Shown one piece after another: positions 1-54,513 of a stretch of 64,000 bases of DNA (the first letter of the stretch is position 1; each line of letters opens with the position of its first letter). Made by a program: the position numbers and the translations under genes. This stretch comes from Blastocystis sp. Blastoise. Taxonomy: Eukaryota; Sar; Bigyra; Opalinata; Blastocystidae. The stretch covers positions 1 to 64,000 of the forward strand of contig JBBPEB010000030.1 of the NCBI GenBank assembly GCA_039096225.1. The letters are read 5' to 3'. The notes beneath the pieces are model-generated. The model did no database searches. It worked only from the letters and a program-made list of their open reading frames with translations, and had not been told where the DNA came from.

Positions 1-124
1 TAATATAAAATTAATAAATAAAATAAAATAAATGAATAAATATAATAAATAAATATAATAAATAAATAAATAAATAAATAAACATATAAATAATAAAAAT
101 AATAAATAAAATATAAATATATAC
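1..124. repeat. TAAA/TAATAAA microsatellite
   Basis: Low-complexity repeats of AAAT and AATAAAT. The same kind of tract lies directly after the 3' end of copy A1 at 9435-9659, so it is probably the junction tract of a tandem Helitron array that continues to the left of the window. Confidence 0.8.
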
Positions 125-437
125 CTATAAATTAATCTGGAACCACAGATTAAAAAAAGAAAGACATAAAAAAACGAAAACCACAACACATCAACAACAT
201 TTTCTTCCTATAGAATAAAAATAATTAACAATATATAGAATAAATTATATATAAAGAAAAAATAAATAAAATACACAAATAAAATAATAAGTAAAACAGA
301 TGAATGGACAAATGAAAAAGAAAATATTATAAAAAATATATATATTTATATACCTGACAATAAATAAGCCATGTAGCACAACCAGGACCACTTCAAGAAG
401 CTTCTATCACCACAACCAAGACAAATACAAAAGAATC
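125..437 (-). pseudogene. Divergent exon pair upstream of A1, second exon frameshifted
   Basis: On the minus strand two exon-like blocks carry the same splice signals as the Helitron exons: 354-437 (84 nt, TATAG before and GTATAT after) and 125-207 (83 nt). The first block has one open frame of Cys- and Trp-rich sequence (CICLGCG followed by FLKWSWLC). The second block has compensating single-base indels relative to copy A2 and meets an early stop in the expected frame. I do not recognise the protein. It could be the decayed end of a small gene transcribed away from the transposase, or sequence captured by the Helitron. Confidence 0.3.
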
Positions 438-584
438 CTATAGAAAAGTGTATTATTTTCAATAAATAAATAAATCTATATATATAAATATAAAAATAAT
501 AACTAAACAATATCAAATTAATTAATAAAACATATACAGACAATCAATATAATCAAATAATTAAAAAATGTAAAAAACTACAGT

Positions 585-600
585 TTTTGGGTACCCAAAA
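585..600. promoter_or_regulatory. 16-bp perfect palindrome upstream of the A1 gene
   Basis: TTTTGGGTACCCAAAA reads identically on both strands. It lies about 190 bp before the transposase ATG and between the divergent exon pair and the gene. GTAAAAAAC on the left and GTTTTTAAC on the right extend the symmetry imperfectly. It is retained exactly in copy A2 at 10,119-10,134 although surrounding bases differ. It could be a protein-binding site or part of the transposition origin; the role is inference. Confidence 0.45.
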
Positions 601-792
601 TGTTTTTAACAAAAAATGACCCAATTATCAGTTTAGCAATAAAATTAATAAAAATTCGAGGTTAATTATGATTCATTATATTTTTAAAGATACATATTTT
701 AAATGTTGACCCTATTTTACAAAAATTGAAATCAAAATAAGATTTTGTTTTCTTCATAAAAATACTTATTTTATAATTAGTTATTAAATAAG

Positions 793-2020
793 ATGCCTAA
801 GAAGACTCGGATGTCGTCCAGGCGGAGGTCTGAAAATAGGAAAAGCTATATTTCTCAAAGACGGTCAAGTATGTTTTACCATTCTTTATTATTATTCATA
901 TATAGGTTCTTCTACTCAGATGGATGCAAGCATGGATGTCATTGATGGTGATGGTGCTTATCAATATGGTCTTGAAGGTATATATTTATACATTTCTTTT
1001 TGTTTTATTATTTTATATCATCTTAGGCTCTTCTATGTCCATGGTGTCCTATTCTGATGATGGTGTAAGGTTATCGTGTGGTCTTGAAGGTATGTTGGCA
1101 TTCATTTGTTTTTATTTTTATATTTTATTTTCTATAGGTTCTTCTATTGTTGTGGACTCTGTTGCTGGAGCTATTGATGGTGATGCTAACTCTACTCACG
1201 GTCTTGAAGGTATGTTGTCAATCATTTATTTTATTTTTTTTAATTTTTATTTATCTATAGGTTCTTATACTCATGATGATGTTGTTGCTGATGCTATTGA
1301 TGGTGGTGTTAACTCTACTCATGGTCTTCAAGGTATATAATCATTCATTTATTTATTTATTTTTAATTATTTCTTTTATTTCCTATTTATATTTTATTAT
1401 AGGTTCTTCTGTTGCTGTGAATGTTAGTGCTGATGTTATTCATAAAGAAGGTATATATAATATATTTTCTTTTTCTTCTTTTTGATTTATACTTTTATTT
1501 TATAAATATATATAGGTCCTTCTGTTCTGATAGTGTCTTCTGTTCATGGTACTGTATCTGATGGTGATCATCCTTCTAATGCTAAAGGTATATAGATATA
1601 TCATATATATATATTTATTATTTTTCTTTTAATTCTTTCTTATTTGTTTTTATATAGGTCCTTCAACTCAGTTAGTACATGGTCATTCCTCTATTCCTTC
1701 TTCAGAAGGTATATACATATATATATGTATCTATGTTTATTCTATTTTATGATTCTATATAGGTGTGTCTTTTAATTTGGGATCGTGTGACTCTGATGTT
1801 GGTCTTGATATGGTTACTACTAATATATATAAAGGTATATATATATATATATATATAATATTATTTATTTATTTATACTTATACTATTGTATATATATAT
1901 AAAGGTGATGGTGTTAATAATTCTTCAGTCGTTGATGGTGTCAATGGTTCTTCAATTATTCAAGGTATATTTATACTTATATTATATTCTATACTTATAT
2001 AGGTTCAAATAAAGTTGTTG
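793..2020 (+). other. Micro-exon module of A1 (exons 1-11)
   Basis: Eleven exons of 76, 72, 63, 72, 72, 48, 72, 51, 72, 60 and 18 nt are separated by introns of about 37-70 nt. All internal exons are symmetric 1-1 and multiples of three. Exons 2-5 encode variants of one unit that begins G/S-S-S or G-S-Y and ends G-L-E-G or G-L-Q-G, so they look like products of exon duplication. Exon 11 is only 18 nt and encodes GSNKVV; exon 12 begins with the related GSNKDK. No known domain is recognisable. Confidence 0.75.
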
Positions 2021-4149
2021 GTATGTATTATTTATTATTTTAGTTTCTTTTTCTTTTGTTTTATTATTTTTTTTCTTTCACAGATAATAGCTTTCTGTTA
2101 TCTGCTTTCTTTTTATTATCTATTTATATATTTATTTACTAAGCTTAGCTTTAGCTACTTAGTATTTAAATATTTAATAGAATCCTTTCTTTTTTCCTTT
2201 TTGTTTTGTTATTTTTTTTTTATTTTAATTTTACTTTAATCGTGTCGATATATACGGGAAGGTGTCGGATATTAAGATAATTTTTGAATTACTTAATATT
2301 AAATAGTGTTGAGTATTTTAATATTTGTATTTAATTTAATTAATACAACTATTGATTACCTATATGACTCATACTATTGCTGACTATTGTTCGCTTCTAA
2401 CTCTATATAGTCTAACCGATGTAATACTATCAATGATTGAGATATCTAAGTGTTAAGATTCTTCACTTACTCACATTGTATATGATATTAACTGGTAGTT
2501 AGCTATATGTTTATAGAATGTTGTAACAAAGCACAATAGCTATAGATGTCCTCTATGAGGTTGAATCATATAGATTGTTTAATAAATTATACAATACTAA
2601 TTACCTATACTTATTTAATATTAGTTTTCATTAATTATAATATTATCTTTCATTACATTATAGTATTGAAGATAATAATTAATTAATAAAGTTTTTACTT
2701 TATATTATTTAATATATCATACTATATGTATGTATTATTATATTAATAAAGGTTATATACTTTATATTAATAAATATATCATAGTATATCTATTTATTAT
2801 TATATTAATAAAGGTTATATACTTTATATTAATAAATATATCATAGTATAACTATGTATTATTATATTAATAAGAGTTATATACTTTATATTAATAAATA
2901 TATCATAGTATATCTATGTATTATTATATTAATAAAGGTTATATACTTTATATTAATTAATATATATCATACTATACTTATGTATTATATTATATTGATG
3001 AAGGTTATACTTTATATTAATTAATATATATCATATTATATTCTATGTATTATTATATTAATAAAGGTTATACTTTATATTAATTAATATATATCATACT
3101 ATACTTATGACTTATATTATATTAATAAAGGTTATACTTTATATTAATTAATATATCATACTATACTTATGTATCATATTATATTGATGAAGGTTATACT
3201 TTATATTAATTAATATATATCATAGTATATCTATGACTTATATTATATTGATAAAGGTTATACTTTAAATTAATATATATATTATCATACTATATCTATG
3301 TATTATATTATATTAATAAAGGTTATACTTTATATTAATTAATAATTACTTCAGTAACTATAACAATGAAAGTTAATTTATATAATACACAACTAAACTT
3401 TATTCTAAACTTAAACATAATATAATTAATATCTAACTATTAATATATATAGGTTCCAATAAGGATAAAATAAATAATAATGATTTATCTAAATCATTTG
3501 GTTTTAACACTAAACCTTTAGCTTTGTTTTCGACTTTTAATTTTCAAAATAATATTCCTTTACAAAACATTCAAAACAATAATTCAAATAACAATATTGA
3601 TATTGATATAGATAATAGTTATTCACAAATAAATAATAATAATTCTATATTAAATAATGGTTCAAACCTATTCAATCAAATGAATCCAGTTAATCAATCA
3701 ATTAATAACATATCTATTGTTCAAAGTCAAATTAATAATAATAATTCATCTATTCCTATATCAACTACTATTATACAACCTACAGAAAATAATACTTCTG
3801 TTTCTAATAATAATAATGATTCTATTAATACTTCTTCACACTCTTTATCTGTTGTTACTACTATTCCAACTGATGTAAGTATATCTAACAATAATAATTC
3901 TACAATCATTAATGATAATACGAATCATTCAAGAAATAACACTAATACTAATAATAATGAAACAATAATACATAGAAATAATAGATCTATTAATTCCATT
4001 ATGAATAGTTATTTAACTATTCCTGATTTAAGTCCTATTCTTCCTCCTTTAAGTATTCTAACAAATATTCCTCATATTAATTTAAATAATGATAATGAAT
4101 CAGAAATTATAACAACAATACCTAATAGTAGTAGTAGTAGTTCAAGTGA

Positions 4150-4180
<31 letters not shown>

Positions 4181-7100
4181 TTTTCTGATAATGATTCTGA
4201 TTCTGATTATATTGATCCTTTTCCTAATATTAATAGTAATACTCAAAATAATGATGAAATACCAGTTGTAAGAACTATTAGAAGACCTATAACAGATAAT
4301 AGTATGTTTTTTTATTATTTAAATATATTTATTAAATTTTATTTATAGTTGAAGAAGATATAATTATTCATCCTATTATTAATAGAGGAAGAAGAAGAGC
4401 TTTAGATATTTGTATGCTATTTATTTTTTATAATTCTTTATAAATAATTAAATAATAAATTATTTTTATAGATAATCAACAAAGATTATTATATCCTGGA
4501 TTACATAATTGTATTGCTTCTATTCAAAGAAGTATTTATATATATAAATATTTATTTTATATTATTTTATATAGATTCTCATGGTGATTTTGTATTAAAT
4601 GAAGCATTGAATACTTATAAAGCTAATTATTTAGGTGATTTTAATGTTCATTGTGAATATTGTCATGCTAAACATTTTGAATTAGAGAAAGGAATGAATG
4701 ATAAGTTTTATACTTGCTGTGGTAGTGGTAAAGTAGTTCTTCCTGAACTTCCTGATCTTCCTAATACTATTCGTTCTTTATTAAGAAGAGATAATCCAGA
4801 TTCAAGAGAATTTATTAATAATATAATTCGATATAATAATTCTGTTGCTTTAGCTTCTTTAGCTGGAAATAATACTTCTGATGATGATTTAAGAAATTCT
4901 TCTGGACCTTTATTATTTAAATGTGGAGGTAATATATATCATACTTTTAAGAGTGCTTTAGATTTTGATGTGAATGATCCTACAAGACATCCTGTATTCA
5001 ATCAATATTATATGATAGATGGAGATGAAGCTACTCATATGAGAAGTATGAATCGATATTTTTGTGATTTAAAACCAAATATTTTAGAGATATTAGATAG
5101 TACAATAAGAGAATATCATCCATTAGCTCAAATATATAATTCACTTCGAGAAAGAGTAGATGAAGTAATAGAAGAGAATAGTCAAATGAATAGAAGTAAT
5201 ATTAATTTATTAATAGAATTTAAGAAACAAAGAAGAGAAGTACCTGATATAAGAAGATATAATACTCCTCAAGTAGATGAAGTAGCAGTAATATATCAAT
5301 ATAGAGAAGGAGGAGTAATGCCAGAAAGAAGTTATTGTTGTTTTCCTAGAAGTGGTATGGAAATAGTAGCTACTAATAGTAATAATGAACAGAATCGTTA
5401 TACTTCAGGTCAATATATAGTAATGAAGAATACTAATTCATATATAGATTGTATGGTTTATCCAGTTATGTTTCCAACTGGAAGACAAGGTTGGTATCCA
5501 GATTTATTATCATTGAATCGTTCTAATCAAATTACTATTACTATGTTAGAATATTATAATTATATGCTTCAAATGAAAAATCCACCTTATGATAATTATT
5601 TATTAAAATATAAGAAATTAACTTTACAATATATTACTGATAATTATATCCGAGTTGAACAAAATAGAATTAATTATATACGAAATAATCAAAATAAGTT
5701 AAGAGCTTCAACTTATCAGAATATAAATAATATGTTAGAAGAGAGAGGAGATCAAATAAATGAGAATGATAGAAATATAGATAGAATAGGTAAAGCTATT
5801 ATATTACCTTCTTCTTTTGTTGGTAGTCCAAGAAATTTACAACAGAAATATATGGATGCTATGAGTGTAGTTCGAGAATATGGTAAACCTGATTTATTTA
5901 TTACATTTACTTGCAATCCAGATTGGTTAGAAATAAAGAATAATATTCCAGAAGGTTATACTGTTAATGAATTTCCAGATTTAGTTTCAAGAGTGTTTCA
6001 TTTAAAGTTGAAACAATTGCTTTCTGATATAAAGGATAAGAATATATTTGGTACTGTAGAAGCTTTATTATATTCAGTAGAATTCCAAAAGAGAGGTTTA
6101 CCACATTCTCATATATTAATTATTTTAGATACGAATTCTAAATATAGAACAGAAGATGAAGTAGATAGTATAATAAGTGCAGAGATTCCCGATAAAGAAT
6201 CAACTCCTCTTCTTTATGAATTAGTTAAGAAACATATGATTCATGGTCCATGTGGTCCTGATTATGATACGAATTGTGTTTGTATTGATAGATCAACAGG
6301 TAAATGTAGTAAGAGATTTCCAAAAGAATATATAGAGCAAACTAATTGTCATTTAAATTCTTATCCTTTATATCAAAGAAGAAATATTCCTGATAGAACT
6401 ATTACTCTTATTCGTAGTCATAATACTTATACTATTGATAATCGTTGGGTAGTTCCTTATAATCCTTATTTATTATTGAAATATCAAGCTCATATTAATG
6501 TAGAAGTCTGTTGTAATATTCAAAGTACTAAATATATATATAAATATGCATTAAAAGGAAATGATTCTGTGATAGCTCAATTAAGAAGAGTGAATGATAA
6601 TGGAATAGTAGATGAAACTCAAGCTTATTTAGATTGTCGATATGTTTCTCCTCCTGAAGCTTCTTATCGTTTGAATTGTTTTGAAATTACTTATAATTCT
6701 GTTTCTATTAATAGATTACCTATTCATTTACCTGATGATCCATATATATTATTTCGAGAAGGACACGAAGAAGAAGCATTAAGAAATAGTTTAGAGAAAG
6801 GTACTAAATTAACAAAATACTTTGATTTAGAGAAAGAAGTTCAGAATCAAAGAAAGATATATACTTATTATTATATAGAGAAGAAGCATGGTATTCGTAA
6901 TATGAATAATGTAGAAGAAGAAAGAGAATTGATTCAAGTTCGTTTAGAAGAGATAAATAGAATAAATAGTTATGAAGTAGATGATGATAATATATCAGAA
7001 GAATTATTGAAAATATTAGATGAGAAATATCCTATTTATGCTTATCATGAAATACCAAAATATTATGTATGGAAATCGAATACAAATACTTGGAATAGAC

Positions 7101-9187
7101 GTCAGAGAGATATAAAAGCTTTAGGAAGAATGTATTATGTGAATCCAAAAGATAAAGAACGATATGCTTTGAGATTATTATTATTGAATACGAAAGGAGC
7201 TGATAGCTTTGATTCTTTGAAGATAGTAAAAGGATTGAATCGTAATGAACCTTATAGAACCTTTAGTGAAGCAGCTATAGCAAGAGGATTATTGAATAAT
7301 GAGAGAGAAGTATTTGATTCATTTTCAGAAGCTATTGTTTTTGCTACTCCATGTCAATTGAGACAATTATTTATTACTTATATTTCAGAATCATTATTAA
7401 CAAATGTAAAAGAGTTTTGGATTCGATTTAAATCATTTCTTAGTGAAGATTATAAACATTCAATGCATAATAATGAAATAGATTATATAAATACTCCTTT
7501 AGCTCAAGATTTAGATTCATCAAGTGTTATAGAAGATGATACTAATAGTGTTCTTCAAGATTATGAAATACGTACTTTACAAGATATAAAAGAGATGATG
7601 ATAAGTATAGGAGTGAATTATAATGATTTAGGATTACCTCAAGTAGAAGAACAACATCATTATAATGATTATAATTATAATCCTACTTTAGAATTACAAG
7701 AAGCTAATAGAGTAATAGAATTATTAAATGAAGAACAAAGAAATGCATTTGATAGAGTAATTCATTCAATAGAAAGTAGTAGAATAGAAGATAAGTTATG
7801 TTTCTTTATAGATGGTCCAGGTGGAAGTGGAAAGACTTTCTTATATAATAGTTTATTAAGTTATTTACGTGGACATAATAAGAATGTATTACCTGTAGCT
7901 TCAACAGGAATTGCTTCTACTTTATTACCAGGTGGTAGAACAGCTCATAAACAATTTGGTATTCCTTTGAATGTTGATCCTGATTCTACTTCAAATATAG
8001 ATTTAGCTAGAGATAGAAGAAAAGTAGAAGAAATAAGAATAGCTGATTTAATAATATGGGATGAAGCTCCTATGATGAAAGGTGATTGCTTTATGGTAGT
8101 ACATAGATTATTATGTGATATAATGAATACAGAATTAGATATTCCTTTTGGTGGTAAAACAGTAGTATTAGGAGGAGATTTCAGACAATGTTTACCAGTT
8201 ATAAGAAAAGGAACTCAAGCTCAGATTGTTAGTTCTTCTATAAAGTTTTGTTCCTTATGGAATTCGATAAAGAATAATGTCATTCATTTATCAAGAAATA
8301 TGAGAGCTTTAGAAGGAGCAGATGATTTTAGACAATGGTTATTACAAGTAGGAGATGGTGTTCTTTCTAATAATTATACTATTAGTCATCATTTAGATAT
8401 AGATTATATTCCTATTCCTCCTCAATGTATTGTAAATGATGATTTATGTGTTACTGTATTTGGACATAGAATCAATACTTCTCTTGATTCTGATATTAAA
8501 CGATTAGCTTCTTCTGTTATATTAGCTTCTACTAATGATTGTGTTGGTACTTTAAATGATTTCATTGTAGATAATCTTCTTTCTGGAACTACTACTCCTT
8601 ATATCTCTTCTGATTCTATTCTTGATTCTGAAACAGATGATCCAGAATCAAATTATCCTATCGAGTTTATTAATTCTCAAACACCTTCTGGAATGCCTCC
8701 TCATATATTAAATTTAAAAATAGGTTGTATCATTATGCTTTTAAGAAATCTTAATCCTTCTAAAGGATTATGTAATGGTACTAGACTTATAGTTACTCGA
8801 TTAGGATCAAATAATATTACTGCTACTATTTTAAATCCTCCTCCTTCTCTTACTATTGATGAACGTACTGTTATTATTCCAAGAATTATCTGTAATTCAA
8901 ATCCTGAAGATCTTCCTATTATTATATCCAGAAGACAATTTCCTATTCGTTTAGCGTTCGCAATGACTATCAACAAATCTCAAGGACAAACATTTGAAAG
9001 AGTTGGTGTTTATTTAGATCGTCCTGTCTTCTCTCATGGTCAACTCTATGTTGCTTTTAGTCGTGCCCGATCTTTCAACTCTCTTTTTATTAAGGTAGTT
9101 GATAGTGTTTCTCAAGGTAAGATGATTAGTAGTAGTAATGAAATATTTACTAAGAACGTGGTCTTCAGGTCTACTCTAAATAATTAA
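793..9187 (+). CDS. Helitron Rep-helicase transposase, copy A1 (15 exons)
   Basis: This gene encodes a rolling-circle transposase (HUH endonuclease plus Pif1-type 5'-3' helicase), expected to act in the nucleus. Exons: 793-868, 906-977, 1027-1089, 1138-1209, 1261-1332, 1403-1450, 1516-1587, 1658-1708, 1763-1834, 1905-1964, 2003-2020, 3453-4301, 4349-4411, 4472-4531, 4575-9187. Every border has GT/AG and every intron is phase 1, giving about 2,086 residues without a stop. Exon 1 is basic (PKKTR, SSRRR) and may be a nuclear localisation signal. Exon 12 is Asn/Ser-rich with a long Ser run. The last exon holds a Cys/His cluster (CEYC, then CCGSGK), the HUH motif PHSH (about residue 1059), KYIYKY (about 1202), Walker A GPGGSGKT (1630-1637), WDEAP, GGDFRQ and NKSQGQTF. 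All key motifs look intact. The splicing is predicted, not observed. Confidence 0.88.
2021..3452 (+). repeat. Long intron 11 of A1 with a ~60-bp satellite
   Basis: This 1.4-kb intron begins GTATGT and ends TATATAG. Its first 670 bp are unique sequence. From about 2697 to 3342 a unit of about 58-66 bp recurs roughly eleven times, built around TTAATAAAGGTTATA, CTTTATATTAAT and ATATCATA-TATATCTATG. The same intron and satellite occur in copy A2. The open stretch after 2015 is rich in Phe, Leu and Tyr and stops at 2239; I read it as intron. Confidence 0.7.
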
Positions 9188-9387: not shown

Positions 9388-9434
9388 GCCGCGGCGCGTC
9401 GCCGTTAGGCGGTGCGCCAGCGGCGTTACCCTAG
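9388..9434 (+). other. Helitron A1 3' terminus (hairpin + CTAG)
   Basis: A 16-bp stem with loop GTTA is formed by GCCGCGGCGC-GT-CGCC and GGCG-GT-GCGCC-A-GCGGC, with two G-T pairs and one bulged A. Ten bases later the element ends in CTAG, followed by T. A hairpin about 10 nt before a CTRR end next to T is the textbook Helitron 3' end. The GC-rich stem stands out from AT-rich surroundings. Confidence 0.92.
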
Positions 9435-10327: not shown

Positions 10328-11563
10328 ATGCCTAGAAAAGGCAGAATGTCATCAAGGCGGAGGTCCTTGAATCAAAAAAAATACGTTTCTCAAAGACGGT
10401 CCAGTATGTATTGTATTTATTTTTTTTTATTATTCATATATAGGTTCTTCTACTCAACAGGATGCAAGTATGGATGTCATTGATGGTGATGGTGCTTATC
10501 AATATGGTCTTGAAGGTATATATTTATACATTTCTTTTTGTTTTATTATTTTATATTATCTTAGACTCTTCTCTGTCCTTGGTGTCCTTTACTGATGATG
10601 GTATAATGTTTTCAAGTGGTCTTGAAGGTATGTTGTCAATCATTTGTTTTTATTTTTATATTTTTATTTATCTATAGGTTCTTCTGTTGTTGTGGACTCT
10701 GTTGCTGGAGCTATTGATGATGATATACACTCCACTAATGGTCTTGAAGGTATGTTGTCAATCATTTATTTTATTTTTTTTTTATTTTTATTTATCTATA
10801 GGTTCTTATACTCATGATGATGTTGTTGCTGATGCTACTGATGGTGATGCTAACTCTTCTCATGGTCTTCAAGGTATGTAATCATTTATTTATTTATTTA
10901 TTTTTAATTATTTCTTTTATTTCCTATTTATATGTTATTATAGGTTCTTCTGTTGCTATGAATGTTGGTGCTGATCTTAATCATAAAGAAGGTATATATA
11001 ATATATTTTCTTTTTCTTCTTTTTGATTTACTTTTATTTTATAAATATATATAGGTCCTTCTGTTCTGATAGTGTCTTCTGTTCATGGTACTGTATCTGA
11101 TGGTGATCATCCTTCTAATGCTAAAGGTATATAGATATATCATATATATATATTTTTTATTATTCTTTTAATTCTTTCTTATTTGTTTTTATATAGGTCC
11201 TTCAACTCAGTTAGTACATGGTCATTCTTCTATTCCTTCTTCAGAAGGTATATATATATATATATATATATATGTATCTATGTTTATTCTATTTTATGAT
11301 TCTATATAGGTGTGTCTTTTAATTTGGGATCGTGTGACTCTGTTGTTGGTCTTGATATAGTTACTACTAATATATATAAAGGTATATATATATATATATA
11401 ATATTATTTATTTATTTATACTTATACTATTGTATATATATATATAGGTGATGGTGTTAATAATTCTTCAGTCGTTGATGGTGTCAACAATTCTTCAATT
11501 ATTCAATGTATATTTATACTTATATTATATTCTATACTTATATAGGTTCAAATAAAGTTGTGG
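10328..11563 (+). other. Micro-exon module of A2 (exons 1-11)
   Basis: Exon lengths are identical to those of A1 (76, 72, 63, 72, 72, 48, 72, 51, 72, 60, 18). Exons 3-6 differ from A1 at 27 of 255 bases, with about 22 replaced residues and only two synonymous codons. Introns 2 and 4, next to them, differ at about one base each. Exon 7 is identical. The contrast suggests fast protein change confined to part of the module. Confidence 0.75.
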
Positions 11564-14500
11564 GTAAGTATTATTTATTATTTTAGTTTCTTTTTCTTTT
11601 GTTTTATTATTTTTTTTCTTTCACAGATAATAGCTTTCTGTTGTCTGCTTTCTTTTTATTATCTATTTATATATTTATTTACTAAGCTTAGCTTTAGCTA
11701 CTTAGTATTTAAATATTTAATAGAATCCTTTCTTTTTTCATTTTTGTTTTGTTATTTTTTTTTTTATTTTAATTTTACTTTAATCGTATCGATTAACGGG
11801 AAGGTGTCGGATATTAAGATAATTTTTGAATTACTTAATATTAAATAGTGTTGAGTATTTTAATATTTGTATTTAATTTAATTAATACAACTATTGATTA
11901 CCTATATGACTCATACTATTGCTGACTATTGTTCGCTTCTAACTCTATATAGTCTAACCGATGTAATACTATCAATGATGAGATATCTAAGTGTTAAGAT
12001 TCTTCACTTACTCACATTGTATATGATATTAACTGGTAGTTAGCTATATGTTTATAGAATGTTGTAACAAAGCACAATAGCTATAGATGTCCTCTATGAG
12101 GTTGAATCATATAGATTGTTTAATAAATTATACAATATTAATTACCTATACTTATTTAATATTAGTTTTCATTAATTATAATATTATCTTTCATTACATT
12201 ATAGTATTGAAGATAATTATTAATTAATAAAGTTTTTACTTTATATTATTTAATATATCATACTATATGTATGTATTATTATATTAATAAAGGTTATATA
12301 CTTTATATTAATAAATATATCATAGTATATCTATGTATTATTATATTAATAAAGGTTATATACTTTATATTAATAAATATATCATAGTATATCTATGTAT
12401 TATTATATTAATAAATGTTATACTTTATATTAATTAATATATCATAGTATATTCTATGTATTATTATATTAATAAAGGTTATATACTTTATATTAATATA
12501 TATAATATCATACTATACTTATGTATTATATTATATTAATAAAGGTTATACTTTATATTAATAAATATATCATAGTATATCTATGTATTATATTATATTA
12601 ATAAGAGTTATATACTTTATATTAATAAATATATCATACTATATCTATGACTTATATTATATTAATAAAGGTTATACTTTATATTAATTAATATATCATA
12701 CTATACTTATGTATCATATTATATTGATGAAGGTTATACTTTATATTAATTAATATATCATACTATACTTATGTATGTATTATTATATTAATAAATGTTA
12801 TACTTTATATTAATATATATATTATCATACTATATCTATGTATTATATTATATTAATAAAGGTTATACTTTATATTAATTAATAAATACTTCAACAACTA
12901 TAACAATGAAAGTTAATTTATATACTACACAACTAAACTTTATTCTAAACTTAAACATAATATATTTAATATCTAATAATTAATATATATAGGTTCCAAT
13001 AAGGATAAAATAAATAATAATGATTTATCTAAATCATTTGGTTTTAACTCAAAACCTTTAGCTTTGTTTTCGACTTTTAATTTTCAAAATAATATTCCTT
13101 TACAAAACATTCAAAACAATAATTCAAATAACAATATTGATATTGATATCGATAATCGTTATTCACAAATAAATAATAATAATTCTATATTAAATAATGG
13201 TTCAAACCTATTCAATCAAATGAATCCAGTTAATCAATCAATTAATAACATATCTATTGTTCAAAGTCAAATTAATAATAATAATCAATCTATTCCTATA
13301 TCAACTACTATTATACAACCTACAGAAAAAAATACTTCTGTTTCTAATAATAATAATGATTCTATTAATACTTCTTCACACTCTTTACCTGTTGTTACTA
13401 CTATTCCAACTGATGTAAATATATCTAACAATAATAATTCTACAATCATTAATGATAATACAAATAATTCAAGAAATAACACTAATACTAATAATAATGA
13501 AACAATAATACATAGAAATAATAGATCTATTAATTCCATTATGAATAGTTATTTAACTATTCCTGATTTAAGTCCTATTCTTCCTCCTTTAAGTATTCTA
13601 ACAAATATTCCTCATATTAATTTAAATAATGATAATGAATCAGAAATTATAACAACAATACCTAATAGTAGTAGTAGTAGTAGTTCAAGTGATAGTAGTA
13701 GTAGTAGTAGTAGTAGTTTTTCTGATAATGATTCTGATTCTGATTATATTGATCCTTTTCCTAATATTAATAGTAATACTCAAAATAATGACGAAATACC
13801 AGTTGTAAGAACTATTAGAAGACCTATAACAGATAATAGTATGTTTTTTATTATTTAAATATATTTATTTAATACTTTTTTATAGTTGAAGAAGATATAA
13901 TTATTCATCCTATTATTAATAGAGGAAGAAGAAGAGCTTTAGATATTTGTATGCTATTTATTTTTTATAATTCTTTATGAATAATTAAATAACAAATTAT
14001 TTTTATAGATAATCAACAAAGATTATTATATCCTGGATTACATAATTGTATTGCTTCTATTCAAAGAAGTATTTATATATATTTAATATTTATTTTATAT
14101 TATTTTATATAGATTCTCATGGTGATTTCGTATTAAATGAAGCATTGAATACTTATAAAGCTAATTATTTAGGTGATTTTAATGTTCATTGTGAATATTG
14201 TCATGCTAAACATTTTGAATTAGAGAAAGGAATGAATGATAAGTTTTATACTTGCTGTGGTAGTGGTAAAGTAGTTCTTCCTGAGCTTCCTGATCTTCCT
14301 AATACTATTCGTTCTTTATTACAAAGAGATAATCCAGATTCAAGAGAATTTATTAATAATATTATTCGATATAATAATTCTGTTGCTTTAGCTTCTTTAG
14401 CTGGAAATAATACTTCTGATGATGATTTAAGAAATTCTTCTGGACCTTTACTATTTAAATGTGGAGGTAATATATATCATACTTTTAAGAGTGCTTTAGA

Positions 14501-17500
14501 TTTTGATGTGAATGATCCTACAAGACATCCTGTATTCAATCAATATTATATGATAGATGGAGATGAAGCTACTCATATGAGAAGTATGAATCGATATTTT
14601 TGTGATTTAAAACCAAATATTTTAGAGATATTAGATAGTACAATAAGAGAATATCATCCATTAGCTCAAATATATAATTCACTTCGAGAAAGAGTAGATG
14701 AAGTATTAGAAGAGAATAGTCAAATGAATAGAAATAATATTAATTTATTAATAGAGTTTAAGAAACAAAGAAGAGAAGTACCTGATATAAGAAGATATAA
14801 TACTCCTCAAGTAGATGAAGTAGCAGTAATATATCAATATAGAGAAGGAGGAGTAATGCCAGAAAGAAGTTATTGTTGTTTTCCTAGAAGTGGTATGGAA
14901 ATAGTAGCTACTAATAGTAATAATGAACAGAATCGTTATACTTCAGGTCAATATATAGTAATGAAGAATACTAATTCTTATATAGATTGTATGGTTTATC
15001 CAGTTATGTTTCCAACTGGAAGACAAGGTTGGTATCCAGATTTATTATCATTGAATCGTTCTAATCAAATTACTATTACTATGTTAGAATATTATAATTA
15101 TATGCTTCAAATGAAAGATCCACCTTATGATAATTATTTATTAAAATATAAGAAATTAACTTTACAATATATTACTGATAATTATATTCGAGTAGAACAA
15201 AATAGAATTAATTATATACGAAATAATCAAAATAAGTTAAGAGCTTCAACTTATCAGAATATAAATAATATGTTAGAAGAGAGAGGAGATCAAATAAATG
15301 AGAATGATAGAAATATAGATAGAATAGGTAAAGCTATTATATTACCTTCTTCTTTTGTTGGTAGTCCAAGAAATTTGCAACAGAAATATATGGATGCTAT
15401 GAGTGTAGTTCGAGAATATGGTAAACCTGATTTATTTATAACATTTACTTGCAATCCAGATTGGTTAGAAATAAAGAATAATATTCCAGAAGGTTATACT
15501 GTTAATGAATTTCCAGATTTAGTTTCAAGAGTGTTTCATTTAAAGTTGAAACAATTACTTTCTGATATAAAGGATAAGAATATATTTGGTACTGTAGAAG
15601 CTTTATTATATTCAGTGGAATTCCAAAAGAGAGGTTTACCACATTCTCATATATTAATTATTTTAGATACGAATTCTAAATATAGAACAGAAGATGAAGT
15701 AGATAGTATAATAAGTGCAGAGATTCCTGATAAAGAATCAACTCCTCTTCTTTATGAATTAGTTAAGAAACATATGATTCATGGTCCATGTGGTCCTGAT
15801 TATGATACGAATTGTGTTTGTATTGATAGATCAACAGGTAAATGTAGTAAGAGATTTCCAAAAGAATATATAGAGCAAACTAATTGTCATTTAAATTCTT
15901 ATCCTTTATATCAAAGAAGAAATATTCCTGATAGAACTATTACTCTTATTCGTAGTCATAATACTTATACTATTGATAATCGTTGGGTAGTTCCTTATAA
16001 TCCTTATTTATTATTGAAATATCAAGCTCATATTAATGTAGAAGTCTGTTGTAATATTCAAAGTACAAAATATATATATAAGTATGCATTAAAAGGAAAT
16101 GATTCTGTGATAGCTCAATTAAGAAGAGTGAATGATAATGGAATAGTAGATGAAACTCAAGCTTATTTAGATTGTCGATATGTTTCTCCTCCTGAAGCTT
16201 CTTATCGTTTGAATTGTTTTGAAATTACTTATAATTCTGTTTCTATTAATAGATTACCTATTCATTTACCTGATGATCCATATATATTATTTCGAGAAGG
16301 ACATGAAGTAGAAGCATTAAGGAATAGTTTAGAGAAAGGTACTAAATTAACAAAATACTTTGATTTAGAGAAAGAAGTTCAGAATCAAAGAAAGATATAT
16401 ACTTATTATTATATAGAGAAGAAGCATGGTATTCGTAATATGAATAATGTAGAAGAAGAAAGAGAATTGATTCAAGTTCGTTTAGAAGAGATAAATAGAA
16501 TAAATAGTTATGAAGTAGATGATGATAATATATCCGAAGAATTATTGAAAATATTAGATGAGAAATATCCTATTTATGCTTATCATGAAATACCAAAATA
16601 TTATGTATGGAAATCGAATACAAATACTTGGAATAGACGTCAGAGAGATATAAAAGCTTTAGGAAGAATGTATTATGTGAATCCAAAAGATAAGGAACGA
16701 TATGCTTTGAGATTATTATTATTGAATACGAAAGGAGCTGATAGCTTTGATTCTTTGAAGATAGTAAAAGGATTGAATAGTAATGAACCTTATAGAACCT
16801 TTAGTGAAGCAGCTATAGCAAGAGGATTATTGAATAATGAGAGAGAAGTATTTGATTCATTTTCAGAAGCTATTGTTTTTGCTACTCCATGTCAATTGAG
16901 ACAATTATTTATTACTTATATTTCAGAATCATTATTAACAAATGTGAAAGAGTTTTGGATTCGATTTAAATCATTTCTTAGTGAGGATTATAAACATTCA
17001 ATGCATAATAATGAAATAGATTATATAAATACTCCTTTAGCTCAAGATTTAGATTCATCAAGTGTTATAGAAGATGATACTAATAGTGTTCTTCAAGATT
17101 ATGAAATACGTACTTTACAAGATATAAAAGAGATGATGATAAGTATAGGAGTGAATTATAATGATTTAGGATTACCTCAAGTAGAAGAACAACATCATTA
17201 TAATGATTATAATTATAATCCTACATTAGAATTACAAGAAGCTAATAGAGTAATAGAATTATTAAATGAAGAACAAAGAAATGCATTTGATAGAGTAATT
17301 CATTCAATAGAAAGTAGTAGAATAGAAGATAAGTTATGTTTCTTTATAGATGGTCCAGGTGGAAGTGGAAAGACTTTCTTATATAATAGTTTATTAAGTT
17401 ATTTACGTGGACATAATAAGAATGTATTACCTGTAGCTTCAACAGGAATTGCTTCTACTTTATTACCAGGTGGTAGAACAGCTCATAAACAATTTGGTAT

Positions 17501-18725
17501 TCCTTTGAATGTTGATCCTGATTCTACTTCAAATATAGATTTAGCTAGAGATAGAAGAAAAGTAGAAGAAATAAGAATAGCTGATTTAATAATATGGGAT
17601 GAAGCTCCTATGATGAAAGGTGATTGTTTTATGGTAGTACATAGATTATTATGTGATATAATGAATACAGAATTAGATATTCCTTTTGGTGGTAAAACAG
17701 TAGTATTAGGAGGAGATTTCAGACAATGTTTACCAGTTATAAGAAAAGGAACTCAAGCTCAGATTGTTAGTTCTTCTATAAAGTTTTGTTCCTTATGGAA
17801 TTCTATCAAAAATAATGTCATTCATTTATCAAGAAATATGAGAGCTTTAGAAGGAGCAGATGATTTTAGACAATGGTTATTACAAGTAGGAGATGGTGTT
17901 CTTTCTAATAATTATACTATTAGTCATCATTTAGATATAGATTATATTCCTATTCCTCCTCAATGTATTGTGAATGATGATTTATGTGTTACTGTATTTG
18001 GACATCGAATCAATACTTCTCTTGATTCTGATATCAAACGATTAGCTTCTTCTGTTATATTAGCTTCTACTAATGATTGTGTTGGTACTTTAAATGATTT
18101 CATTGTTGATAATCTTCTTTCTGGAACTACTACTCCTTATATCTCTTCTGATTCTATTCTTGATTCTGAAACAGATGATCCAGAATCAAATTATCCTATC
18201 GAGTTTATCAATTCTCAAACACCTTCTGGAATGCCTCCTCATATATTAAATTTAAAAATAGGTTGTATCATTATGCTTTTAAGAAATCTTAATCCTTCTA
18301 AAGGATTATGTAATGGTACTAGACTTATAGTAACTCGATTAGGATCAAATAATATTACTGCTACTATTTTAAATCCTCCTCCTTCTCTTACTATTGATGA
18401 ACAAACTGTTATTATTCCAAGAATCATCTGTAATTCAAATCCTGAAGATCTTCCTATTATTATATCCAGAAGACAATTTCCTATTCGTTTAGCCTTTGCC
18501 ATGACTATCAACAAATCTCAAGGACAAACATTTGAAAGAGTTGGTGTTTACTTAGATCGTCCTGTCTTCTCTCATGGTCAACTCTATGTTGCTTTCAGTC
18601 GTGCTCGATCTTTCAACGCTCTTTTTATTAAGGTAGTTGATAGTGTCTCTCAAGGTAAGATGATTAGTAGTAGTAATGAAATATTTACTAAGAACGTGGT
18701 CTTCAGGTCTACTCTAAATAATTAA
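10328..18725 (+). CDS. Helitron Rep-helicase transposase, copy A2 (15 exons)
   Basis: Same structure and role as the A1 gene. Exons: 10328-10403, 10444-10515, 10565-10627, 10678-10749, 10802-10873, 10944-10991, 11055-11126, 11197-11247, 11310-11381, 11448-11507, 11546-11563, 12993-13838, 13886-13948, 14009-14068, 14113-18725. All introns are phase 1; the product is about 2,085 residues. Exon 12 is one codon shorter than in A1 because the Ser run differs. The donor after exon 10 is AAT|GT instead of AAG|GT but keeps GT. The HUH motif PHSH lies near nt 15,639, Walker A near 17,352, and NKSQGQ and YVAFSRAR close to the C terminus. No stop or frameshift is seen, so both tandem copies look potentially active. 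Confidence 0.88.
11564..12992 (+). repeat. Long intron 11 of A2 with the same satellite
   Basis: This intron matches the A1 intron: a unique first part almost identical to A1, then the ~60-bp satellite from about 12,238 to 12,882. Order and spacing of satellite variants differ from A1, so the array has been rearranging since the copies separated. Confidence 0.7.
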
Positions 18726-18914: not shown

Positions 18915-18961
18915 GCCGCGGCGCGTCGCCGTTAGGCGGTGCGCCAGCGGCGTTACCCTAG
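18915..18961 (+). other. Helitron A2 3' terminus (hairpin + CTAG)
   Basis: The hairpin at 18,915-18,951 is identical to that of A1, followed after ten bases by CTAG and then T at 18,962. This marks the right edge of the tandem array. Confidence 0.92.
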
Positions 18962-19057
18962 TGTATATGAAGAAAACAAGAGATAGCACATTAATAAATA
19001 GAAAATTCAGAACAAAAATAATAATGAATAGGAAGAAGATAATGAAATAAAGATGAA

Positions 19058-19215
19058 GATGATGATGAAGAAGAAGGAAATGAATAATGACAAGAAGAAG
19101 ATGATGAAGAAGAAGGAAATGAATAATGACAAGAAGAAGATGATGAAGAAGAAGGAAATGAATAATGACAACAAGAAGATGATGAAGAAGAAGAAGGAAA
19201 TGAATAATGACAACA
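19058..19215. repeat. 36-bp minisatellite, about 4 units
   Basis: A 36-bp unit containing GATGAAGAAGAAGGAAATG and AATAATGACAAGAAG repeats about four times with few changes, including AAG to CAA near the end of the array. Confidence 0.8.
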
Positions 19216-20232
19216 AGAAGATGAAGAATAAATAGAATAATGATAAGAAAGAATAAATAGATTAATAAGAGAACAAGAGGATGAATGTGAAGAAGAGACA
19301 AGGAAGGAGGTGAAAAAAAGAAAGAAAAGCAAGATAAAGAATAGGAAGAAGATATACAAGAAAATGAAGAAGAAGAGAAAGAAAAGAAAAGAAGAATGAA
19401 CAAAAAACATATATAGAGAACAGAAAGATATAAAGAAATAAAAGAGATAGATATATAGATAGATGGATATATAGATGGATGCATAAATAGACAGATAAAA
19501 TGAGAAAGAAATAGAGAATAAGAGATACAAAGATATAAATAAATAGATAGATATAGAAAAGAGAAAGAAGAAAAGAGAGAAATAAAAAAAGAAATCAGAT
19601 AGAAAGAGATAGAATGAGAGATAGAACGATAGATAAAGAGAGATATACAAAGTAATGAAATAGAGAACCAGAGAAAATAGATACAAGAATAAAGATAAAA
19701 ATCGAAGAAAGAGTGTGAAAGTAAAATAACATAAAGAGAGATAGAGAGAAAGAGATGAATTGAAGAAATAGCGAGAAGGATGAAGGAAAAATATATAATA
19801 GGAAGAGGAAGAAGGGAGAGGAAGAAAAAGAAAAAGAGACGAAGATGGGATATGAAGACAAAGATGGGAGAGAAAAAGATCAGGAAGCGAGGAAACAAAA
19901 AGATAAAAATATATAAAGAGGGAAAAAGTTCAGAAAAATAGAAAAAGATAGAGAGGGATAGGGAAAACTAATAATATAGAATGATAAAGAGAGAATGAGA
20001 GATAAAGAAAGATAAAGAAGAAAAAAGAGTTATAAAATAATAAAGAAAGAAAAAAAAAGAACGATAGTATATGAGAGAAGAAAGAGACACAAAGAAAAAG
20101 ATAAATAAGAGAGAAACATAGAAAGAGATAGAATATATAGAAGATGAGAAAGGATTGAGATAGAAAGATACATTGAGATAGAAGAAGACAGAAGGATATA
20201 GAGAAGGAGATACATAGTGATAAAAAGGAAAA

Positions 20233-21560
20233 CATGAATAGAGAGTAGATAGAAGAAAATAGAGAAGGAGAAGTAGATAAAAGAAGATAGAAAGAAGAGA
20301 GAAGTAGATTAAAATAAAAACAAATAGCAAGAAATAAAAGAAGATAGGGAAGAATATAGAATGATCTGAAGAATGAGATGTAGATAGAAGTGAATAGAAG
20401 GAAATAGAGAAGGAGAAGTAGATAGAGAAGAATAAAATGAAAGTAGAAGTAGAAGGAGAATTAGAGAGAAATAGGAAAAATACGTAGGACACGAGAGAGA
20501 GAGAGAGATAAAATGATATAAAATAATAGAGAGGGAGAGAAAGCGGATTGAGATATAGTAAGGGAGAAACATGTAGACAGAGATAGAGAAGTAGATAGAG
20601 GGAGATAAAGAAGATAGAAGAGACATACAAGGAGAGATAGTAGATTAAGCTAGAATGGATATAATAAGATAGAGAAGAAAAAGAAAGAGATATAAGCAGA
20701 TAAGAGAAAATTGAAGGAAATAGAGAATGAGATACAGACACATAAATGAGATAGAATGAGATATATAGAGATAGATAAATATGAAGAAAAAAATAGGAAT
20801 ACATAGAGATAGAAGGATATTGAAAGAGAGAGAAAAGGAGAGAAAGAAGATTGAGACAGAAGGAGTAGCAGAGATAAAAGGAAATAGAGAAGGAAATAGA
20901 AGGAGAATGAGAAAAGAAGGAGAAGGAGATATGTAAGATTTGGATAAAATGAGAAAGAGAAGAAGAATAGATAAGAAGAATATGATAGAAGGAGATAGAA
21001 AAAGAGATGAATAGGGATAGAAAGAGACAAATAAGGGAGAAATTGTTAGAAGGATATAGAAGAAGATAGAAAACGAGAAAGAAGGAGAGATTGAAAGATA
21101 TAAAGGAGATTAAGAAAGAAGTGAGCAAGAAGAAGATAGAGATAGATAGAAAGAAATAAAAGGAGATAAATAAAAGATAAAATGGAGATAAATAGGAGAT
21201 TAAGATAGAAGAAAAGAGAGAATGAGATAAAAGTGATAAAAAGGAAAACATGGATAGAGAGGAGATAGAAGAAAACAGAGAAGGAGAAGTAGATAAAAGA
21301 AAATAGAAAGAAGAGAGAAGTAGATTAAAATAGAATAAAATGTAGATAGAAGGAACAGAGAAGTAGATTAAAATACAGTAGATAGGAAAAGATAAAAGGA
21401 AGATAAGGAAGGATATAGAATGATCTGAAGAATGAGACAGAGAATGAAGAGAAGGAACAGAGAAGTAGATTAAAATAGAAGGAGATGTGGATAGAAGGAG
21501 ATAAAAGAAAATAGAGAAGGAGAAGTAGATAGAAGTAGATAGAAAGAAGAGAGAAGTAGA
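20233..21560. repeat. Long-period duplication inside purine tract 1
   Basis: A block starting near 20,233 recurs near 21,248, about 1,015 bp later, with the same order of words (GAGAAGGAGAAGTAGATAAA, AGAAGAGAGAAGTAGATTAA, then AGAATGATCTGAAGAATGAG). A partial third occurrence follows near 21,500. This is higher-order repetition and not simple slippage. Confidence 0.6.
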
Positions 21561-23340
21561 TTAAAATAAAATAAAATGTAGATAGAAGGAGATAGATACA
21601 TATAAAAAAAGATAGAGAATGAAATATGAAAAACAAAGTAGAGAGGAATAGAGAGAAAAAATAAAAAATAAATAGAACAAGAGAGAGAGACAAAAAATAC
21701 GGAATGAGAGTAAGAAGGAAAGAAAGAGGATTGAGATATAATAAGATAGAACGATGCAGAAGGACATAGAGAAGTATAGAAGTAGGTAGATAAGATAAAG
21801 GCAAAATAAAATGAGAAAGAGATGTAAATAGAACAATCCAGAATGAGAGAAAGAAGACGAGAAAGTAGATTAAAATAGAAGGAATATAATGATATGAAGA
21901 AGAAAATAGAAACGTAGATAGAATTAGATAGAATGAGATAAAATGAGTTAGATGGGTATAGAAGGAGAGAGAAATGAAACAAATAAAAAGATAAAGAACG
22001 AGATAAAGTGAAGAAAAAGATATAGATACATAAAAGGAGATATAACGAAATAAAAAGGAAATAAAAAGGAAATAAAAAGGAAATAAAAAGGAAATAAAAA
22101 AAATAAATAGAAAATAAAATAAAAGACAAATAAAAAATAGAGAAGATAAAAATAGAAGGATAAAATAGAAATAGAGACAGGGAAGACTAAAAAGAAGGAG
22201 CTTAGAAGGAGATAAATGAAGATATAGAAGGAAAAGTATATAGAAGGAGGAGAAAATAAAGATAGGAAGAAACAGGAAAGGAGATAAGGAAGAAGTAGAG
22301 AAGATAAAGATAAATACAGATAGAGAGAGGTAGAAGAAGATAGAAAGAGATAAAGTAATAATAGAGAAGGAAAATGAGATACAAAATGAGATAGAAATGA
22401 TTAATATAGAAGGAGATGAGAATGGCATAAATAACTGAAATAAGTAGGTATAAGTAGATAGAGAAGGATAAAGATAGAAATAGAAATAGAGAAATAAATA
22501 TAAAAAAAAATTGAAATACAAGGTGAACGAGAGAGAGAAGGAGACAAAAAGAGAGAATGAAGATATATAATGAGATGAAGAAGGAGATTGAAAGAGAAGA
22601 TAAATATAGACAGTGAAAGAGAGAAATAAAAAGAATAACTAATCATAGACATAGAGAGAAATAGAGAGAAATAGAACATACAGAGGGAGGAAAGAAAAAC
22701 GGGAGAAGAATATGTGGAAAGAGATAGAGAAGATGATAGAAGAAAATATGATATAAGAAAGATAAAGATAGATAGGAAGAGATATAGAAAGATATAGAAG
22801 GAGAGTGAGATGAAAAAAGAAAGAGATGGGGATCGAGATAGAAGGAGATATAAATAGTAGACAAGGAAATGGAGAGATATAGGGAGAACTACGACAGAAG
22901 AAGAAAGAAGACTGAGACAGAATGAAATAAAGAAGAATTAGTTAGAAGAATGAGAGAAGGAAATAGACAAGTAGTGGATTTAGAGAAGAAGATAAAAGAA
23001 AAATAAAGAAGGAAATAGAAAAGGAAACGAGAAGAAGATAGAAGAAGATAGAAAGAATGCTAATATATAACGAGGTTAGAAGGAGATAGAAAGATAGAGA
23101 GAAGTTAAAATATAGAAAGAAGTGAGAAGTAAGAAGGAAGAAGAAGAAGAAAAATATTAGGATGCAAGAGACAGAGTAAGAAGAAAGTAGGAAGAAGTAA
23201 GAAATAAAAAAAGAAGAAAGTAAGCAGAAGAAGAAGAAAGAAGAAGAAAGAAAAGAAGAAAGTAAGAAGTAAGAAGGAAGACAGAAGGAAGAAGAAAGAA
23301 GTAAGAAGAAAATAAAACTTTGATTAAGAGAAGACGATAA

Positions 23341-23912
23341 TTCTTGAGTAATAAGGGAAACTAGATAAATAAATAAATAAATTGTAAATATATTAGAAGA
23401 AACATACTAAAAAATAATTTTTGAATCTGGTAATGTTGAGGCATAAAATAGAAAAGAAAGCAGGAATACAAGAAAACAACCTAAAGAAGTAAACAATAAT
23501 AAATAAATCTATTAAAATAAATAAAAAAAAATAAAATAAAATGAATTAGAATTCTAATTCAAGAAAAAGAAAAAATAAAGTTAATAATTATATAAAATAA
23601 CAAATAACAAGTGATCTATCATATAGTATGACAGCAATATAAAAAGCTAAAGAGATAAAAGATAATTACTAAAAAAAATATATATATATACTATGAAAAT
23701 AATTTGACATCATGGACCTTATTAAGACGGATTGAAGAAGCCTATGAAAGCCATAAGACGACAAGAAACTATATATGCTAGAGAATGGGAGAATAATAAT
23801 ATGGATAAAGAATAAAAAATAGTAATATACATACAAGAGAATAATCTGAAGTTAAAATCAACTTCTATTTTTTAAAATAAAAGCTAATAAAAATAAAAAA
23901 AAATAAAGAAAA
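23341..23912. other. AT-rich spacer, no gene recognised
   Basis: Ordinary AT-rich sequence between the purine tract and the 3' end of Helitron B3. I see isolated splice-like signals around 23,690-23,790 on the minus strand but no consistent open frame. Confidence 0.5.
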
Positions 23913-23950
23913 CAAGCGTTTCACGGCCTGCCTACGCAGGCCTACGCTTG
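23913..23950 (-). other. Helitron B3 3' terminal hairpin
   Basis: On the minus strand CAAGCGT-A-GGCCTGC-GTAG-GCAGGCC-GTGAA-ACGCTTG forms two 7-bp stems. The outer stem ends in CTTG, followed by T. Copy B4 has the identical hairpin at 36,687-36,724. Unlike family A the hairpin reaches the very end, and the last four bases are CTTG instead of CTRR. Confidence 0.75.
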
Positions 23951-24149
23951 AGTTTTATTTTAAAATATTTAGTTTTAGTTTTTGGTTTTAAGTTTAACAA
24001 AACAACAAAATATTATATATTTAACTTTTAAGAACAGCAAATAAAAATTGAAAAGAGAAAAATAATAAATAAAAACAAATATATTAACAAAGAATAACGA
24101 ATATAAAAGAAATCAAAGAATAAAACAAATAAAACAAATAAAACGATAA

Positions 24150-42400: not shown

Positions 42401-43685
42401 TTATTACAATTTATGGCATCCTGTGATTCAACTTCAAATTGATCATGATTAAAAGTAATATTATTATTATTACAATAATAGTTTTGATTTGCCAGATAAA
42501 TATTATTAGAAGTGTTTTCATTTATTTCATTGTAAAGATTATTATCAATGATTTCATAAACAGATTTATCAGAATCGATGGATATTGAGTCACTATTAAT
42601 AGTGTTGCTATTTATGTTAGTATCATCTGCAATCATATTGTCATTACTGAATACTTCTTTTACCGACTGAATAACATTATTTTTACCTGTAGAATGTTTT
42701 GAATTTAAAATTTGCTCTTGTATAATATTATTTTGATTTTGTTGTTTAAAAACTATAAAGGAATTGGTTATTAAATAACAGTAGTATAATTATTATTTAA
42801 AAAAGTAATAATATAAAAAAAACATAGAACTAAAATTCTTTCGTAAAATTTTTAGATTTATCAAATATTATTTTTATGTATTAGAATTATTATGTTGATC
42901 ACATCTGTTCAGTGTTTAAATAAATAATAATAAAACAAAACAAAATAAAAAAAATTATCATAGAATTGTTTATAATAGATCAGAATAAAAAAGATATAAA
43001 ATTAGAATAAAAGCATATTAATCAGGATAAATAAATGAATAATGAATAAACAATATATATAATATATATAATATATATAATATATATAATATATATGTTA
43101 TATACTACTATTATCAGATTCAAAGGAAGAATCAGAATCTTGATCATTTAGCAGCTGAATAATTTTTGATAATTTATCCAATTTTGATTTTCTTTTTTTA
43201 GGTTTGGTTACTATATAAAATATAATTAATACAAAAAAATAATCATAAATAATTATATACTATTTTTATTATTATCTTCTGGCTTCTTGTCCTCATTTGC
43301 CCTAAGACTGATAACAGAACTGTTATTCATAAAATGAATATCAGTTTTTGCTGTATCGGCATCATTCTTTCCATTTGCTAAATATATATATATATCTAAT
43401 AAGTATAATAGGTATTATATAAAAAATAAAAATATTTATATTTACATACCCAAACTTACAACACTGAAGGTTTTTGATATAACATCTAATAGATTGGGTA
43501 GATATTCTTCAATAATATCTTTAGCTATATTGGAAAGAATAATATAAGGAATACAATAATATATATAAATACTTTGATGAAGACCACTCACAGATAAAAG
43601 AGTACTCTTATCAAAAGTTATTGATGTATTAGTATTCTTATAGCCTATACATATAGTAAAATTATATCTATATGTATAGTAATAG

Positions 43686-43719
<34 letters not shown>

Positions 43720-44836: not shown

Positions 44837-44888
<52 letters not shown>

Positions 44889-54452: not shown

Positions 54453-54513
<61 letters not shown>

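Follow-up and report, generated by a model that had tools for sequence, protein, structure and literature searches.

We analysed a stretch of 64,000 nt from Blastocystis sp. Blastoise (Opalinata, stramenopiles), comprising positions 1 to 64,000 of the forward strand of contig JBBPEB010000030.1 and referred to below as the window (23.9% GC), and found that its Helitron transposase genes carry a 5΄ half composed of many short exons separated almost exclusively by phase-1 introns. This 5΄ half is probably an assembly of tandemly duplicated, recombining cassettes, each a symmetric phase-1 exon with its intron, which together provide a variable tail in front of a conserved Rep-helicase.

Symmetric phase-1 exons upstream of the Rep-helicase

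The first family A gene (copy 1; 793–9187, plus strand) has 15 exons, which once spliced form a single open frame of 2086 aa. Exon 1 (793–868, 76 nt) is followed by ten exons that begin and end in phase 1, located at 906–977 (72 nt), 1027–1089 (63 nt), 1138–1209 (72 nt), 1261–1332 (72 nt), 1403–1450 (48 nt), 1516–1587 (72 nt), 1658–1708 (51 nt), 1763–1834 (72 nt), 1905–1964 (60 nt) and 2003–2020 (18 nt). After a long intron 11 of AT-rich repeats (2021–3452, 1432 nt) come an Asn/Ser-rich exon 12 (3453–4301, 849 nt), exons 13 (4349–4411, 63 nt) and 14 (4472–4531, 60 nt), and finally exon 15 (4575–9187, 4613 nt), which encodes the Rep (Helitron_like_N) and PIF1 helicase domains. All 14 introns are GT–AG and phase 1, 13 of them are 37–70 nt long, and each of the 13 internal exons is a multiple of three. 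The first-pass annotation had placed the gene at 793–4531; 14 exons do lie there, but the gene continues through exon 15 to 9187.

Copy 2 (10328–18725, plus strand) has the same 15 exons and likewise only phase-1 introns, except that exon 12 is 846 nt and the protein 2085 aa. Its exons 1–5 lie at 10328–10403, 10444–10515, 10565–10627, 10678–10749 and 10802–10873, exons 6–11 at 10944–10991, 11055–11126, 11197–11247, 11310–11381, 11448–11507 and 11546–11563, and exons 12–15 at 12993–13838, 13886–13948, 14009–14068 and 14113–18725. The peptide of family A exons 2–11 contains 18.5% Ser, 14% Gly and 10.5% Asp, with a net charge of –21. In comparison with these acidic exons, the first exons of families A and B look basic (MPKKTRMSSRRRS; SKKKQHKEDMQQRRS) and possibly supply a nuclear signal.

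That these genes are Helitron transposases, as had been proposed, was borne out at both the protein and the DNA level. Exon 15 matched the PIF1 helicase (2e-64) and Helitron_like_N (1.8e-56) domains, so that Rep and a PIF1-type helicase reside in one protein, and a hairpin shortly before CTRR was present at the 3΄ ends: all 11 ends located through the motif had a hairpin, then CTAG and then T. The terminal hairpin and CTAG end of copy 1 lie at 9388–9434 (plus strand; –20.1 kcal/mol, with 3 of 200 shuffles folding equally well), and those of copy 2, assigned by identity with copy 1, at 18915–18961 (plus strand). Downstream of both family A stop codons we found TGTTTGTT (window 9253, 18763 and 18780), which is probably a Blastocystis polyadenylation motif. 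Genome-wide, there were 51 Helitron_like_N matches. Two family A Helitrons are arranged in head-to-tail order at the beginning of contig C20, which holds the window, and on C20, C11, C10, C7 and C1 several are found no more than about 20 kb from a contig end; such copies are perhaps subtelomeric.

We computed gene models in which any intron phase was permitted, with codon scores trained only on Rep-helicase exons and splice scores set by hand. On the micro-exon region this phase-free model scored 118.5 (copy 1) and 116.9 (copy 2), and when the copy 1 region was dinucleotide-shuffled 40 times the best score was 28.5; the micro-exon structure is more than chance. Over the whole 5΄ half, exons 2–10 and 12–14 of copy 2 were found exactly, as were exons 5–10 and 12–14 of copy 1, in which exon 2 came out too short and exons 3 and 4 were joined across an intron that is open there. 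Of the introns in these models, 12/14 and 14/17 in the two copies were in phase 1; those in other phases fell at the start of the gene and within the long intron 11. Public proteins were also mapped onto the DNA with a phase-free spliced aligner. The NCBI model WA158_002607 of Blastocystis sp. Blastoise (hereafter P0001), with a 99% match to the Rep-helicase of copy 1, gave 14/14 phase-1 introns in each copy, with borders in copy 1 as in the first-pass annotation and matching ones in copy 2; its start lies at the second ATG (811 in copy 1, 10346 in copy 2). P0001 was made independently of that annotation, but it may have been predicted without RNA. The earlier claim of phase-1 introns and multiple-of-three internal exons in both tandem copies is confirmed.

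A second family with the same architecture lies on the minus strand of the window. Copy B1 (24150–35298) has its Rep-helicase frame at 24150–29183 with phase-1 short exons upstream, and copy B2 (36930–46912, by the phase-free model) has its frame at 36930–41822 with phase-1 short exons up to about 46912. The public model P0122, mapped on the related locus L041, showed 17/17 phase-1 introns and 16/16 internal exons that were multiples of three. By the phase-free model, phase-1 introns numbered 18/18 in B2, where some exons were probably missed, 18/19 in L041 and 12/15 in B1, which carries a 3-kb insertion. Two further mappings were left out of the counts: P0123 on B2 (19/19 phase 1, but a score of 510 of 2520) and P0122 on B1 (11/11 phase 1, one of them the 3-kb insertion read as an intron). 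P0122 and P0123, which represent two subfamilies of family B, are 79% identical over their last 2,100 residues (starting at residues 407 and 207, respectively), and no match was found between the first 406 residues of the one and the first 206 of the other. The insertion in B1, about 3 kb, interrupts an exon at 34435–31415 (minus strand); a GC-rich hairpin (CAAGCGTTTCACG...CTACGCTTG) stands at its edge, and a similar hairpin was seen by eye near 23914–23951.

In family C, the micro-exons are near-identical, 27 nt long and encode (DSGSKLLTQ)n plus variants. Four arrays contain 19 (C4), 21 (C34), 16 (C24) and 20 (C3) units, and none of these 76 units has a stop, while 74 are exactly 27 nt long between a flanking AG and a flanking GT. 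Intervening introns measure 36–221 nt and mostly consist of TA-type simple repeats. On its own locus, L051, the public model P0125 had 19/19 phase-1 introns over the array and 18 internal exons in a row that were exactly 27 nt long. On another family C copy, L040, it had 23/24 phase-1 introns (the exception being in phase 0), 21/23 internal exons that were multiples of three, and one 111-nt exon spanning two units; the phase-free model gave 23/26 phase-1 introns on the same copy.

We then compared the three families with each other and with host genes. The Rep-helicase parts of families A, B and C are 37–44% identical, whereas no blastp match between their modules was better than E 0.7, and we therefore rejected the idea that the modules share their sequence. 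The architecture is common to the three families; the encoded module sequence is not. Seven chaperonin genes of the host, modelled with the same method, contained 34, 15 and 8 introns of phase 0, 1 and 2, respectively, and 20 of their 50 internal exons were multiples of three; these are our own models, with some doubtful ends and, in L046, a spurious poly-Leu exon. Because only 15/57 chaperonin introns are in phase 1, the phase-1 rule is not a host-wide habit, and a host-wide bias was discarded as an explanation (Fisher P = 7e-17 against 54/55 pooled phase-1 introns of families A, B and C, although introns of an array are not independent). A MULE transposase with a SWIM zinc finger is encoded at 54369–56447 (plus strand). 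It was discarded as a control, since its gene model was low-scoring, of mixed phase and too poor to judge micro-exons. Elsewhere in the window, about 4.4 kb (19000–23400) is purine-rich and of low complexity, with long minus-strand open reading frames that are probably spurious.

Variation and turnover of the cassettes

The first-pass annotation had also held that exons of this module can be lost, gained or shuffled harmlessly. Such variation occurs naturally among the copies, and it is at the DNA level that the claim is supported. We aligned 24 family A copies or pieces. In 14 of them all eleven 5΄ exons are present with unchanged lengths and AG/GT borders, five are pieces that we trimmed at the end of the match (among them L028, with a frame shift in exon 1), and five have differing exon sets. 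For example, in L026, with a Rep frame of 1559 aa, exon 7 is 30 nt long and three exons of 33 nt replace the 60-nt exon 10, and L024 has exons of 66, 45 and 54 nt in place of 72, 48 and 72. Both are in phase 1 throughout from exon 2 to exon 10; the exceptions are exon 1 in both and the long intron in L024. Exon number and size vary among copies that have open Rep-helicase frames, as the unit number does among the family C arrays.

Exchange between copies is also visible. Between L029 and L026, 111/483 sites are different in the stretch that runs from exon 3 to intron 6, and 1/530 from exon 7 on; for L024 and L012 the counts are 7/348, then 63/213, then 32/500. Within family A, units resemble each other in exons and introns alike (E4/E5 57/72; I3/I4 42/48), and in family C blocks of several units have been duplicated together with their introns (357/365 and 275/297 identical). 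Splice sites have died in one C4 unit (donor) and in one C34 unit (both sites), and the Rep matches of both copies are stop-free despite these units. Because the units start and end in phase 1, the Rep-helicase stays in frame after a change of whole units or the death of splice sites. Accordingly, skipping any single exon in silico kept the frame in 13/13 cases in both family A copies, whereas retaining a single intron kept it in only 2/14 (copy 1) and 0/14 (copy 2).

Older remnants of the family A module, at 67–75% identity, occur at C3:437885, C20:321983, C22:935200, C3:918483, C23:112717, C6:15638, C11:28196 and other places. No Helitron_like_N match was found within 6 kb downstream of them on the same strand, and all five that were mapped (loosely) contain in-frame stops. 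In a search for relatives elsewhere, P0001 alone was returned among the 8000 candidates sharing most words.

Locus L041 has lost introns. In matched pieces around four exons it is 96–100% identical to B1 (L041:3830–4795 against window 34627–30474, minus strand), and three B1 introns (31264–31222, 31149–31085 and 30630–30558) are absent from it to the base. The junctions in L041 read, in this order, ...AACAAAG/GCTATAAAA..., ...GCATTATT/CTAAAGAAA... and ...GATCGATA/ATAATAAAA.... Because the two sides of the deletion share no base at the second and third junctions, a simple deletion mediated by short repeats fails to account for these; we infer recombination with cDNA, which would make these losses a DNA trace of splicing. 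B2 has introns at the matching places (with exons of 72, 75 and 117 nt), so that loss is a likelier explanation than gain. In the decayed family A modules L031 and L039, one intron is gone exactly where L032 and L033 keep it (about 1000–1080 in gene orientation); in this case AGGT flanks the intron on either side, and a plain deletion would also explain its absence.

Sequence comparisons between copies 1 and 2 gave nonsynonymous (dN) and synonymous (dS) divergences of 0.0025 and 0.045 in exon 15, 0.022 and 0.034 in exon 12, and 0.082 and 0.144 in the module, whose introns diverge by 0.033. Among six unrearranged haplotypes we counted 0 gap columns in 676 exon columns and 27 gap columns in introns 1–10. 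The frame of the module is kept; its sequence is not. For the 9-aa unit of family C, the sign of selection at the protein level is weak, with 5 distinct silent changes over 7 sites and 10 distinct replacement changes over 20.

Origin of the arrays and competing explanations

These observations fit best a history in which cassettes were born by tandem duplication of exon-plus-intron units, as the similarity of units and the duplicated multi-unit blocks show, and in which they keep changing through duplication, deletion and exchange between copies, as the differing exon numbers and the mosaics show. Unequal exchange or slippage in the AT-rich introns may drive this turnover. The uniform phase would then reflect the phase of a founder intron together with selection for frame while the array turned over, and by itself it is no evidence of regulated alternative splicing. 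The product would be a polar tail, presumably disordered and loosely constrained, ahead of the Rep/helicase core; its changeability might serve, for example, to escape a host repressor.

Several points weigh against this account. The exon structures are known from DNA alone, and the public models may be ab initio predictions. Introns outside phase 1 do occur in the phase-free models (3/15 in B1, 1/19 in L041 and 3/26 in L040), mostly in doubtful stretches, and the uniformity of the family C exons may partly reflect recent duplication, since the 76 units comprise only 15 distinct sequences. In the six haplotypes the exons vary more than the introns (55/600 in E2–E11 against 18/508 in I2–I10, P = 1.4e-4), the silent divergence of the module exceeds that of exons 15 and 12, and in some pairs dN is above dS (0.063/0.031 for W2/L011). 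The module is thus not plain neutral filler; exchange with older alleles may have raised the silent change in its exons.

Schistosome micro-exon genes suggest a different role, the one envisaged in the first-pass annotation, in which the micro-exons are skipped in many combinations and each gene yields many tails. The single-exon skips that keep the frame agree with such an isoform generator, as does the fact that P0125 contains 19 units whereas 20 with AG/GT borders stand at its locus. The absent unit may be that at L051:312 (reverse strand, AAG acceptor), although units 3 and 4 encode an identical peptide; the absence of a unit may be a hint of skipping or equally a choice made in prediction. 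Uniform phase is, however, expected from unit duplication alone, and in genes with introns as short as those of copy 1, intron retention is usually the commoner error, so that retention rather than skipping would be the usual error here. We consider this role unlikely. A little more doubtful still is the idea that the splicing burden acts as a brake, the Rep-helicase being in frame only when at least 14 introns have all been removed and the transposase thereby being kept low, much as retention of one intron keeps the P element transposase low. Retaining one intron does break the frame in 12/14 cases in copy 1 and in all 14 in copy 2, and it is the architecture, not the sequence, that the three families have in common; but that the element itself would benefit from low activity is a supposition, and three introns have been lost from a family B copy.

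Two further explanations find less room in the data. Introner-like gain, by which elements that create introns entered a coding region of tandem repeats and each time hit the same position of the codon, would explain why family A introns are alike (I6/I2 43/49) and why AG/G borders are common; the joint duplication of exons and introns in blocks and the counterparts in the diverged B2 of the introns absent from L041, which fit loss better, make it very improbable. Least credible is that the arrays are unspliced minisatellites that encode nothing, with the gene beginning at about 3453. The simple TA-type repeats of the family C introns would suit it, but it is contradicted by the 76 stop-free units, 74 of them bordered at exactly 27 nt and separated by introns of such varied length, by gap columns that occur in the introns and not in the exons, by the base-exact losses in L041, of which two have no border base in common, and by the public models.

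Returning to the cassette account, we may ask what the turnover is for. One proposal, which we put forward tentatively and hold to be doubtful, is a transposon-borne diversification, in which cassettes are duplicated and swapped between copies and the whole module is at times replaced, so that the tail changes fast while the Rep-helicase stays fixed. The pressure would come from a host repressor or from defective relatives, and variable splicing may add to the diversity.

Significance and relation to known systems

As far as searches of open-licence papers show (mostly without subscription papers), Helitron transposases have apparently not been described as micro-exon genes. None of the papers found links Helitrons or Blastocystis with micro-exons in this sense; the combination of Helitron and micro-exon returned PMC8293314 alone, and none was returned for Blastocystis with Blastoise. 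The family C arrays, with up to 21 near-identical 27-nt exons whose number differs within one genome, would offer a natural system for the birth, multiplication and death of symmetric exons, and such rows let one ask how the spliceosome handles exons of this size. The element as a whole combines a fixed enzyme core with a changeable front end, and what selects for such tails thereby becomes directly testable.

In having Rep (Helitron_like_N) and a PIF1 helicase in one protein and a 3΄ hairpin followed by CTAG with T as the next base, the Blastocystis copies are the same as other Helitrons; they would differ by the 5΄ half of many short symmetric phase-1 exons if, as the first-pass annotation states, Helitron Rep-helicase genes usually have few introns. 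Tandem duplication of phase-1 modules is known from EGF, Ig and similar domains, and the multiplication of symmetric phase-1 units in frame is alike. The unit there is a folded domain, whereas here it is a short polar peptide (9 aa in family C and mostly 16–24 aa in family A). Introners (PMC9860276) are comparable in that many similar introns are linked to a mobile element, but in the Blastocystis Helitrons the introns multiply together with exons inside one gene, the comparison covering only such introns.

The closest likeness is to the micro-exon genes (MEGs) of schistosomes, which, according to PMC8293314, contain series of short symmetric exons whose omission leaves the reading frame intact. 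MEGs encode proteins exposed to the host, whereas the arrays described here belong to a Helitron transposase in a stramenopile. By the MEG size criterion (exons of ≤36 nt), 1 of 10 exons qualifies in family A (exons 2–11) and 1 of 16 internal exons in family B on L041; family A exons, mostly 48–72 nt, are for the most part too long for the definition. The 27-nt family C exons fall within that size, and they are near-identical and vary in copy number within one genome. By analogy, the Blastocystis arrays appear to work like schistosome micro-exon genes without being members of that class.

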